Shown piece after piece: positions 25,543 through 30,708 of a stretch of 32,454 bases of DNA. A program made the translations under genes and the position numbers. Where the stretch lies: contig JAIKVL010000037.1 in assembly GCA_024685775.1 (NCBI GenBank), positions 1 to 32,454 of the forward strand, read 5' to 3'. The notes below the pieces were generated by a model. That model saw only the letters and a list, made by a program, of their open reading frames with translations. It was not told the origin of the DNA and ran no database searches. This DNA comes from Clostridia bacterium (lineage in GTDB: Bacteria; Bacillota; Clostridia; Christensenellales; CAG-1252). Numbering within the stretch: the first letter of the stretch is position 1; every line of letters begins with the position of its first letter.

Positions 25543-25567
25543 TCAACCTATTGACAAGGTAGGTTGA
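25543..25567 (+). promoter_or_regulatory. operator of iscS-iscU: 25-bp inverted repeat around the -35 box
   Basis: TCAACCTA (25543-25550), 9 nt, TAGGTTGA (25560-25567): perfect 8-bp arms. The 9-nt centre contains the TTGACA -35 hexamer, so a bound protein would block RNA polymerase. The same arms and spacing recur before metY. Size and placement match Rrf2/IscR-type sites. Binding by the regulator at 30277-30708 is inferred. Confidence 0.75.
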
Positions 25568-27239: not shown

Positions 27240-27270
27240 CGAATAAAAGAATCCGAAAACGATTCAAGCG

Positions 27271-27296
27271 AAACGGCGAAGCGATTCGCCGTTTTT
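27271..27296 (+). terminator. terminator of iscS-iscU
   Basis: AAACGGCGAA (27271-27280), GCGA loop, TTCGCCGTTT (27285-27294) with five T residues in total, then CCG and another five T residues. Confidence 0.9.
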
Positions 27297-27353
27297 CCGT
27301 TTTTAAGGGAAACGGATTTTTTGAGAAGTATTGAAAAAAGTTTGTAAAAACCC

Positions 27354-27382
27354 TTGACAGGCAGGAATTCCTATGGTATTAT
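27354..27382 (+). promoter_or_regulatory. promoter of the leader-metY-cysK-ridA-iscR operon
   Basis: TTGACA (27354-27359), a 17-nt spacer, TATTAT (27377-27382). The spacer contains a perfect palindrome, AGGAATTCCT (27363-27372), a possible additional protein site. Confidence 0.85.
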
Positions 27383-27386
27383 CAAA

Positions 27387-27411
27387 TCAACCTACGAGGT
27401 TAGTGGGTAGA
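27387..27411 (+). promoter_or_regulatory. operator before metY, matching the iscS operator
   Basis: TCAACCTA (27387-27394), 9 nt, TGGGTAGA (27404-27411). The left arm is identical to that of the iscS site, the right arm agrees at 6 of 8 positions, and the spacer length is the same. It starts 4 nt after the -10 box, over the start of transcription, a repressing position. An alternative smaller palindrome, AACCT-ACG-AGGTT, lies at 27389-27401. Confidence 0.65.
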
Positions 27412-27424
27412 AAGGAGAAACGCC

Positions 27425-27499
27425 ATGACTGAATTACTGATCGCGCTTGTTCGCAAAAATTTCCGTTTCGGACGAATGTGTTGTCGATGTTGCAGATAG
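27425..27499 (+). CDS. 24-residue Cys-rich leader peptide of the cysteine operon
   Basis: An ATG at 27425, with AAAGGAG placed 8 nt before it, opens a 24-codon frame ending in TAG at 27499. The product starts MTELLIALVRKN and ends M-C-C-R-C-C-R: four cysteine codons in the last six sense codons. It lies between the promoter/operator and metY, whose ATG is 51 nt further on. By analogy with amino-acid leader peptides, slow translation of Cys codons at low cysteine would let the ribosome change expression of metY-cysK. I see no terminator hairpin with a T-run between it and metY, so classical attenuation is not obvious. A weak pairing between 27485-27493 and 27513-27519 would be opened by a ribosome stalled on the Cys codons. 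The function is inferred. Confidence 0.75.
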   Translation: MTELLIALVRKNFRFGRMCCRCCR

Positions 27500-27550
27500 G
27501 AACTTCGCAGACGCAATCGTTTAATGAAAATAAAAAGGAGATTTTATATT

Positions 27551-28834
27551 ATGGCTAACTACAAATTCGAAACGTTACAAATTCACGTCGGGCAAGAGCA
27601 GCCCGATCCGGCGACCGACGCGAGAGCGGTGCCGATCTACGCGACGACGTCTTACGTCTTTAAGGATTCCGCGCAAGCGGCGGGCAGATTCGGCTTGACC
27701 GAAGGCGGCAATATTTACACCAGACTTATGAACCCGACGAGCGACGTCTTTGAAAAGAGGATCGCCGCTTTGGAAGGGGGCGCCGCGGCGCTCGCGACGG
27801 CTTCCGGTTCCGCAGCGATCACCTATGCGATTCAGAATATCGCGACGGCGGGCGACCATATCGTCGCTTCGAGCAACCTGTACGGCGGCTCCTACAACTT
27901 GCTGGCGCACACCTTGAAAGAGCAGGGGCTTTCGGTTACCTTCGTCGACCCCTCGGATCCCGAAAACTTCGCGAAAGCGGTTCAACCGAATACCAAACTT
28001 TTCTACGCGGAGACGCTCGGCAACCCCAACTCGGACGTTATCGACCTCGAAGCGATCTCGTCCGTCGCGCATAAAAACGGAGTTCCGCTTATCGTGGATA
28101 ACACCTTTGCGACTCCGTATTACCTGCGTCCGATCGAGCACGGCGCGGACGTCGTCGTCCACTCGGCGACCAAGTTTATCGGCGGGCACGGGACGGTGAT
28201 GGGCGGCGTCGTCGTGGACGGCGGCAATTTCGACTGGGCGCAAAACGACAAGTTCCCCGGGCTCAGCAAACCCAATCCGTCCTATCACGGCGTCGTGTTT
28301 ACCGAGGCGGTCGGAAACCTCGCCTATATCATCAAACTCAGGACGACCCTTTTGAGAGATCAAGGCGCGGCGATCTCGCCCTTTAACTCGTTCCTTCTTC
28401 TGCAAGGTCTCGAAACGCTTTCGCTTCGCTTGGAGCGCCACGTCGAGAACGCGCTGAAAGTCGTGGAATTCTTAAAGAAGCATCCGCAGGTCGAGAAGGT
28501 CAATCACCCCTCTCTCGAAAAAGGGAAGCAGAAAGCGCTGTACGATCGCTATTTCCCGAACGGCGCGGCTTCGATCTTTACCTTCGAGATCAAAGGCGAC
28601 GCAGAAAAAGCGAAAAAGTTCACCGAGAGTTTGGAACTTTTCAGTTTGCTCGCGAACGTGGCGGACGTCAAATCTCTCGTCATTCATCCGGCTTCCACGA
28701 CGCATTCGCAGCTCAGTGAAGAAGAGTTGCTCGGCGCGGGCATTAAACCGAATACCGTGCGCCTTTCCATCGGAACGGAACACATCGACGATATCCTCGC
28801 GGATCTCGAAAGAGGCTTCGCGGCAGTAAAATAA
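27551..28834 (+). CDS. metY: O-acetylhomoserine sulfhydrylase / O-acetylhomoserine aminocarboxypropyltransferase
   Basis: MetY is a PLP enzyme of the Cys/Met-metabolism family that makes homocysteine from O-acetylhomoserine and sulfide. The 427-residue length and the [25 protein letters not shown] start are typical of MetY rather than MetB/MetC, which are about 380-400. [14 protein letters not shown] is near the PLP phosphate. DNTFATPY and the Schiff-base Lys208 in [11 protein letters not shown] follow, with [12 protein letters not shown] and [14 protein letters not shown] at the C-terminus. ATG 27551 is preferred to an in-frame ATG at 27524 because AAGGAG lies between them. Some family members also accept O-acetylserine. 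Confidence 0.94.
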
Positions 28835-28859: not shown

Positions 28860-29792
28860 ATGGCTAAAATCTACACTTCGGCGGATCAACTCGTCGGCAA
28901 AACTCCGCTTTTGGAGCTTACGCATATCGAAAAGGAACTGAATTTGGAAGCGAAAATTTTCGCGAAACTCGAATACTTCAACCCCGCGGGGTCGGTCAAA
29001 GACCGCATCGCGAAAGCGATGATCGAAGACGCGGAAGAAAAAGGCTTGTTGAAATCGGACTCGGTCATCATCGAACCGACTTCGGGCAACACGGGGATCG
29101 GACTTGCGGCGATCGCGGCGGCGAAAGGGTATAAGATCATCATCGTTATGCCCGAGACGATGTCGGTCGAGCGCAGGCAACTGATGAAAGCCTACGGCGC
29201 GGAACTCGTCCTGACGGACGGCGCGAAGGGAATGAAAGGCGCGATCGCGAAAGCCGCGGAACTCGCCGCCGAAACCCCGAACAGCTTTATCCCCGGGCAA
29301 TTCGTCAATCCCGCGAACCCGAAGATCCATAGGGAGACGACGGGCCCCGAGATCTTCGAGGACACGGACGGGCAGGTCGATTTCTTGGTCGCGGGCGTCG
29401 GAACGGGCGGAACGATCACGGGGGCGGGCGAGTACTTGAAGAGCAAGAAACCGAGCGTAAAGGTCGTCGCGGTCGAACCCAAGACGAGCGCGGTCCTCTC
29501 CACGGGCGTCGCGGGCCCGCATAAGATCCAAGGCATCGGCGCGGGCTTCGTCCCGGACGTCCTCAACACGAAGGTTTACGACGAGATCATCCCCGTCCAA
29601 AACGAAGACGCGTTCGCCGTCGGAAAACTCATCGGAAAGAAAGAAGGCGTCCTCGTCGGGATCTCTTCCGGCGCGGCGACTTGGGCGGCGATCGAGCTTG
29701 CGAAGCGCCCCGAGAACAAAGGGAAGAATATCGTCGTCATCCTGCCGGATACGGGCGATCGTTATCTTTCGACGGCGCTCTTCCAAGACTGA
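28860..29792 (+). CDS. cysK: cysteine synthase (O-acetylserine sulfhydrylase)
   Basis: CysK forms cysteine from O-acetylserine and sulfide using PLP. The 310-residue product has the Schiff-base lysine Lys47 in [22 protein letters not shown] is the substrate loop, [14 protein letters not shown] is the PLP-phosphate loop, and the ending is [14 protein letters not shown]. Length and motifs point to CysK; cystathionine beta-synthase-like and CysM forms are less likely. It follows metY by 25 nt with its own GGAG site. Making sulfide acceptors for both Cys and Met, metY and cysK are a natural pair under cysteine control. No cysE (serine acetyltransferase) is present here. Confidence 0.95.
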
Positions 29793-30276: not shown

Positions 30277-30708
30277 ATGAAGATTTCAACAAGAGGCAGA
30301 TACGCGCTGCGCGTTATGATCGACCTCGCGGAGCACGCGAGCGAGAATTATATTCCCTTAAAGGATATCGTCGCGAGGCAGAACATCTCGCAAAAGTATC
30401 TCGAAGGGATCATGACCGACCTTTCCAAGGCGGGAATGTTGGACGCGCAACACGGTAAAGGCGGCGGATATAAGCTTAATCGCAGCCCCGATCTCGTGAC
30501 CATTCTCGAAGTCTTGCAGACGACCGAAGGCGATCTCGCGCCGATCTCCTGTTTGGACGCTTCGGCGAAACCTTGTTCGCGCGCTTCCGAATGCAGGACG
30601 CTTCCGATGTGGGAAAAGCTGTACGCCTTGATCCGCGAATATCTCGGGAGCGTGACCCTCGCGGACTTGATGTCGGGCGATAACGGCGGCGACAATTACG
30701 TTATTTGA
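30277..30708 (+). CDS. iscR: Rrf2-family transcriptional regulator, IscR-type with three cysteines
   Basis: Rrf2 proteins are dimeric winged-helix repressors. The 143-residue product begins MKISTRGRYALRVMIDLA, the family signature. The recognition helix (NISQKYLEGIMTDLSKAGML) and wing (GKGGGYKL) follow. Three cysteines, Cys92, Cys100 and Cys106, lie in the dimerisation segment, as in IscR (E. coli Cys92, 98, 104), where they hold a [2Fe-2S] cluster. The spacing here is C-x7-C-x5-C instead of C-x5-C-x5-C. CymR-type cysteine regulators of the same family lack these cysteines. It is the last gene of the cysteine operon and the most likely ligand of the two matching operators, which would make it autoregulated. 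The symbol denotes type only. Confidence 0.9.
   Translation: MKISTRGRYALRVMIDLAEHASENYIPLKDIVARQNISQKYLEGIMTDLSKAGMLDAQHGKGGGYKLNRSPDLVTILEVLQTTEGDLAPISCLDASAKPCSRASECRTLPMWEKLYALIREYLGSVTLADLMSGDNGGDNYVI

Follow-up and report, generated by a model that had tools for sequence, protein, structure and literature searches.

In translational attenuators of the ermC/cat type, the ribosome-binding site (RBS) of the next gene is hidden in a helix, which opens when a ribosome pauses in the leader frame. Nascent-peptide control also operates in the methionine synthesis of Arabidopsis, where CGS1/MTO1 undergoes SAM-induced arrest. For mycobacteria, polycysteine leaderless uORFs were reportedly described by Canestrari et al. 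in 2020. Cysteine-codon uORFs precede mycobacterial cys operons (PMC1262725, PMC4633059), and the polycysteine uORFs have been described as translation attenuation in an article that also summarises the ermC/cat principle (PMC13236596). In Rhodobacterales, the uORFC-8-2 motif lies before cysS, and ribosome-mediated attenuation was proposed for it (PMC8632094). Amino-acid leader peptides have been considered rare in Firmicutes, in which T-boxes and riboswitches dominate, and their presence there was found noteworthy (PMC2965389).

Here we analysed a short frame before metY and cysK in a 32,454-nucleotide stretch of DNA from a Clostridia bacterium (the window). Rfam covariance models for T-boxes, SAM riboswitches and all other families gave no match to the leader, and a known riboswitch or T-box was discarded as its identity on this basis. 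A SAM riboswitch is absent from the genome, which carries two T-boxes above the cut-off and one below it (contigs C15, C7 and C4; L215-L217), none of them in the window. No known leader or small-protein family in Pfam, NCBIfam or PDB matched either. The peptide is not described in any of the articles on Cys-codon uORFs and Firmicutes leaders cited above, and FRFGRMC was not found in the literature searched; most subscription papers and all preprints lay outside that search, and an earlier description is possible.

The leader frame and its operon

The first-pass annotation had described a 24-codon frame with a good Shine-Dalgarno sequence (SD) and four cysteine codons among its last six sense codons (C-C-R-C-C-R), and this was confirmed on the sequence. 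It had placed the frame between the operon promoter and metY with no terminator behind it, in agreement with the promoter at 27354-27382 and the start of metY at 27551, 51 nt from the leader; no terminator was found between the frame and metY in the window. The elements of the locus, on the + strand throughout, are the following.

27354-27382, + strand: sigma-70-type promoter, TTGACA-17-TATTAT with TG extension (11/12 matches; predicted start at about 27389)
27390-27408, + strand: 19-bp palindrome ACCTAC-N7-GTGGGT at the predicted transcript start (second copy at 25546-25564; 0.1 by chance in the window)
27411-27417, + strand: SD of the leader ORF, AAAGGAG, read from the sequence, 7 nt 5' of the ATG
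27425-27499, + strand: leader ORF, ATG to TAG, 24 sense codons, MTELLIALVRKNFRFGRMCCRCCR and stop; core kept in 154 distinct leaders
27452-27478, + strand: conserved core, codons 10-18, R-K-N-F-R-F-G-R-M; residues kept, codons 10, 14 and 16 synonymously variable
27456-27464, + strand: anti-SD arm AAAAUUUCC, codons 11-14, pairing with 27537-27545 in the MFE fold
27473-27481, + strand: CGA17-AUG18 pair followed by codon 19 (UGU, Cys), the proposed pause site; CGA-ATG in 154/154
27479-27496, + strand: Cys-rich tail C-C-R-C-C-R, lineage-specific, with in-frame Cys enrichment; missing from members that stop directly after Arg-Met (RM-stop members)
27510-27520, + strand: spacer arm GACGCAAUCGU, pairing with the CGAAUGUGUU region of the leader (folding and duplex comparison)
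27534-27545, + strand: metY SD AAAGGAG and flank; sequestered part GGAGAUUUU, 27537-27545
27551-28834, + strand: metY, O-acetylhomoserine/O-acetylserine sulfhydrylase, the putative controlled gene (Pfam PF01053 and TIGR01326 above cut-off)
28860-29792, + strand: cysK, PLP-dependent cysteine synthase, second gene of the operon (PF00291; named from family and context)

Downstream of metY, cysK is followed by genes for a RidA-type protein and an Rrf2-family regulator, and terminator-like hairpins lie at 27270-27316, upstream of the leader promoter. Proteins encoded 3' of the leaders contain very little Cys (0.19%) and Met (0.49%), a composition to be expected of enzymes that must be made under sulfur scarcity.

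The 19-bp palindrome, with the consensus ACCTAY-N7-RTRGGT, occurs at three places only in the 1.7-Mb genome: before iscS (25546-25564), before metY (27390-27408) and on a further contig (C28:35382-35400). It is probably the operator of the Rrf2-family (CymR/IscR-like) regulator encoded at 30277-30708. The metY copy could also form a small 5' hairpin; a DNA operator was preferred to an RNA switch in view of the copy before iscS and of the relatives L045 and L046, in which the palindrome overlaps the -35 box.

A conserved peptide core and a variable tail

Relatives carry the same core 40-65 nt 5' of metY (orthologues from the genus, family and order), for example in the frames MTSLLIELVRKNFRFGRMCCRC and MKLKMITLIRNNFRFGRMCSSAFCLY. 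With all codons allowed, the pattern FRFGRMC matched 17/396 genomes of the order and 6/391 of the class, and the reversed control pattern matched 0/396 and 1 of 391, respectively; all nine order-search loci inspected precede metY. A one-genome-per-species scan, for which the CGA codon was fixed in the pattern, returned at least 119 matching stretches, mostly from Clostridia; about 6 of the 119 listed are chance matches in unrelated frames, and carriers among the matches listed include Eubacterium coprostanoligenes (L119) and Pseudoflavonifractor phocaeensis (L125). With a profile built from 40 peptides, the leader was detected at E <= 0.01 in 31/381 genomes of the class, of which one is probably a spurious match; divergent leaders that stop right at Met18 were among those recovered. 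The phylum-wide HMM search gave the window plus weak single matches only, and the single match among viral contigs lies in an unrelated frame. By sequence comparison, the leader frame of the window is confirmed as real and far from chance, and its family seems confined to the class Clostridia as sampled.

The core is present in at least 154 distinct Clostridia leaders, nearly all of them 30-90 nt upstream of metY. Most of the others precede metQ/metN transporter genes, and the downstream genes include MetQ lipoprotein genes, one MetN gene, a polar amino acid permease gene and cysK. In one genome, metQ and metY each have a copy of their own (L191, L212), and a second genome carries a pair of copies, both in front of a metY (L195, L211); separate copies per operon within one genome argue for action in cis. 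The leader is missing from the one member of the genus in which a nifU-like gene immediately precedes metY (L014), as would be expected if it serves only transcripts that start at metY.

Across the leaders compared, what stays constant is a peptide, R-x-N-[FWY]-R-x-G-R-M, with CGA-AUG as its last two codons. Among 127 unique leaders, the distance from the start to Phe13 is exactly 12 codons in 114, and Arg10 is kept in 126, with all six Arg codons in use; this combination of codon freedom and fixed length indicates selection at the level of the peptide. In the same set, Asn12-Phe13-Arg14-Phe15-Gly16 is retained despite synonymous variation, which at Arg10, Arg14 and Gly16 marks conservation at the amino acid level. 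Codons 17 and 18 are CGA and ATG in each of 154 unique leaders and also in 48/48 leaders retrieved without a codon constraint; CGA makes up 3.5% of the Arg codons in the genes downstream of the leaders. A single CGTATG case was met in a looser scan.

The part behind this pair is far less uniform. Codon 19 encodes Cys in 136 of the 154 unique leaders, is a stop in 13 (TGA 10, TAA 3) and specifies another residue (Y, W, P, Q or R) in five; stop at this position requires at least five changes on the metY tree. The tail ranges from 0 to 32 codons (127 unique leaders), and several members end in MC-stop or MCR-stop. Where a tail is present, its TGY codons lie in frame (148/581, 25%, vs 7/460 and 12/460, about 2%, in the other frames), which implies that the Cys tail is selected. 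The Cys-codon run beside the stop that characterises the mycobacterial polycysteine uORFs is not general here, as 13/154 leaders end after Met18. Of the initial claim of a Cys-rich sensing leader, a conserved regulatory leader and the in-frame selection of tail Cys codons are supported, and the cluster as a defining feature was ruled out by the RM-stop members. In the sequences compared, the Cys cluster is the variable part, and the conserved part of the window leader is NFRFGRM.

The CGA-AUG pair extends beyond leaders with the full core. An unbiased class-wide sample of metY upstream regions comprised 14 with and 82 without a core leader. CGAATGTG occurs in 9 of the 82 core-less regions vs 0.3 expected by shuffling and was not found on their opposite strand; all nine cases are in frame, within an SD-led frame reading RM-C or RM-stop. 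This suggests that CGA-AUG-UGN is the innermost element and that NFRxG was added in one large branch. In L020 and L024, from the window's order, the in-frame CGA-ATG-TG alone is kept (...FYRRMC... and ...TAKRM-stop). Met and Cys codons abound in several core-less metY frames, such as MIIELVISMDMCMCSMDMHAKKCMSAVF; the metY leaders L230, L243 and L295, with many such codons, resemble classical amino-acid attenuator leaders. A second recurring short frame before metY starts with MKPGN(R/Q)H or a close variant and in many cases contains Cys at later positions (L264, L271, L277, L280, L311, L312 and L314), and is possibly a separate leader family.

Pairing with the metY ribosome-binding site

In the predicted fold of the window leader, AAAAUUUCC (27456-27464) pairs with GGAGAUUUU of the metY RBS (27537-27545), and CGAAUGUGUU pairs with the spacer; the overall stability of this leader is not unusual (z -0.48). 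Across 103 loci, duplexes between leader and spacer reached -16.1 kcal/mol for a leader's own spacer, -13.6 with swapped leaders and -11.0 with shuffled spacers. When the test was limited to the 24-nt core with constant amino acids in 64 cluster representatives, own pairing remained at -13.5 vs -11.9 kcal/mol for permuted combinations (z = -6.8), which, on a core of constant residues, indicates that synonymous positions covary with the RBS region. Dinucleotide-shuffled spacers gave a mean z of about -0.6, reversed spacers -1.7 and another part of the leader 0.2, and coding sequence in place of the spacer showed no significant pairing excess (p = 0.24). GC content was rejected as the source of the covariation, because shuffled and reversed spacers keep the composition and lose most of the signal. 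A consensus fold from a MAFFT alignment of the spacers was abandoned in favor of the duplex permutation, since its non-coding part was misaligned. By eye, the spacers are C-rich and G-poor, which might point to Rho control.

According to folding, the accessibility of the metY SD in the window would rise from 0.32 in the free leader to 0.69 with a ribosome at codons 18-19, and the mean over the leaders from 0.31 to 0.56 with a ribosome at codon 18. Part of this rise is seen with shuffled spacers too (0.39 to 0.56), as the SD flank itself pairs with UUUCC. The anti-SD sequence TTCCG is present at codons 12-14 in 104/141 members with a sense codon 19 and in 0/13 RM-stop members, and the latter show no excess pairing with the spacer. 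The window leader shares with translational attenuators of the ermC/cat type an SD-led leader ORF, a covarying pairing with the RBS and, by folding, a pause position that opens the helix. The covariation between leader and metY RBS agrees with an earlier suggestion that control may act on translation rather than through a terminator.

The terminator between leader and gene that marks a classical transcription attenuator is absent from the window, and four family leaders carry an intrinsic terminator instead; L243, a metY leader outside the core family, has one too. In L080 and L109, the antiterminator is the sequence just 3' of codon 19, and a ribosome at codon 18 favours termination in the fold prediction. 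This modelling predicts a polarity opposite to that of the SD-pairing branch. In L055, the terminator is kept in every modelled state. L055, L080, L109, L113 and L243 share a (U)CCCGG 6 nt after CGA-AUG that is complementary to the 5' arm of the terminator, at a spacing that looks conserved. The terminator-bearing members were not accepted as proof of polarity, given their sign opposite to the SD branch. If the models are right, either the groups do not share one polarity or simple starvation is not what the pause responds to.

Proposed mechanism and relation to known systems

We somewhat favor the reading that the window leader is a cis-acting translational attenuator that responds to a shortage of sulfur amino acids and whose conserved peptide possibly promotes arrest; the signal and the polarity given here are inferred. 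Under such a shortage, the ribosome would pause at CGA17-AUG18-UGY19 and the following Cys codons, owing to low Cys-tRNA and probably also low Met-tRNA, and the pause would be made sharper by the nascent chain and by CGA being a slow codon. By covering codons 13-24, the paused ribosome would keep them from pairing with the spacer and the metY SD, so that the helix opens and metY-cysK is translated; a ribosome that runs to the stop would let the helix re-form and switch metY off. Methionine is as likely a signal as cysteine, based on the placement before metNIQ and on the Met- and Cys-rich metY leaders. The RM-stop members lack Cys from codon 19 onwards and do not pair with the spacer more than expected, which implies that neither a Cys signal nor the SD platform is universal. 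A conserved peptide is unnecessary for simple starvation pausing, which counts against the attenuator reading.

A rival reading is a TnaC-like, ligand-induced arrest: while Met18 occupies the P site, the NFRxGRM nascent chain would bind a free metabolite in the exit tunnel (Met, SAM, Cys or a precursor), and elongation or termination would be blocked; codon 19 could then be either Cys or stop. Such an arrest would explain the conservation at the amino acid level, the fixed length, the invariant Met18 and the repeated (at least fivefold) exchange of Cys and stop at codon 19, and the terminator-bearing members predict that a pause means off, as product feedback would. However, another nine to ten metY leaders have lost or never had NFRxG and retain just RM-C or RM-stop, the strong in-frame Cys enrichment of the tails fits codon sensing, and the SD-pairing branch would be turned on at sufficiency unless the ligand is a precursor. 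We consider this explanation possible but rather unlikely.

The in-frame Cys tails would suit an attenuator in which the Cys run alone senses Cys-tRNA and the remaining peptide is filler, as has precedent in mycobacteria and Rhodobacterales. This is improbable in light of the retention of NFRxGRM while the tail ranges from none to about 32 codons, the existence of RM-stop members and the five members in which Cys19 is replaced. If, on the other hand, the leader were conserved for its pairing with the RBS and were translated only incidentally, one would predict the observed covariation, and CGAAUGUG indeed finds complements in many spacers; but codons 10, 14 and 16 change synonymously while their residues stay fixed, RM-stop members without pairing still keep CGA-AUG, and the frame has a good SD and a fixed length, so that such an RNA-only element is very improbable. 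A trans-acting small protein placed before metY by chance, such as a metal- or regulator-binding Cys peptide, would account for a small peptide with Cys pairs, but it is hardly credible: the frame stands strictly ahead of either of two operon types, each operon having a single copy, some tails shrink to MC-stop or RM-stop, and synonymous sites covary with the neighbouring RBS.

Returning to the sulfur-responsive attenuator, we give even weight for and against a broader proposal, namely that CGA-AUG-(UGY or UGA) and the nascent chain R-x-N-[FWY]-R-x-G-R-M form an undescribed pausing element that senses sulfur amino acid status and replaces SAM riboswitches and T-boxes before metY and metNIQ in Clostridia, with interchangeable sense or stop codons in the A site and interchangeable platforms (RBS pairing, terminator or unknown). 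If true, the leader family would represent a new sensor that reads sulfur amino acids through the nascent chain and recurs across families of Clostridia, and it would offer a tractable case of how a regulated pause is set up by a codon pair together with a peptide.

With the ermC/cat attenuators, the proposed metY leader shares a pause that opens a helix over the RBS of the next gene; their signal is an antibiotic, whereas that of the metY leader would be nutritional, and the peptides are unrelated. CGS1/MTO1 likewise represents nascent-peptide control and belongs to the same PLP enzyme family of Cys/Met metabolism, but it is eukaryotic and acts within the enzyme's own frame, and we claim no sequence similarity. 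As far as the accessible parts of the accounts of TnaC and related arrest peptides go (PMC8429421, PMC10941005), a short leader and a conserved C-terminal peptide are common to both, and TnaC-like pausing just before the Cys or stop codon is conceivable in the metY leader; unlike in these accounts, codon 19 is mostly sense and the RBS helix is part of the element. The uORFC-8-2 motif is also a conserved uORF with Cys codons at a fixed position (14-15 there), but its hallmark is tandem Cys with an intrinsic terminator, it belongs to another phylum and gene, and it lacks the NFRxGRM peptide. The mycobacterial polycysteine uORFs share a short frame, Cys codons near the stop, sulfur genes, the lack of an obvious terminator and a proposed SD occlusion. 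Their signature is the Cys run and they are leaderless, whereas in the Clostridia leader the nine-residue core and CGA-AUG are invariant and Cys may be missing, and the frame has its own SD and stands before metY and metNIQ.
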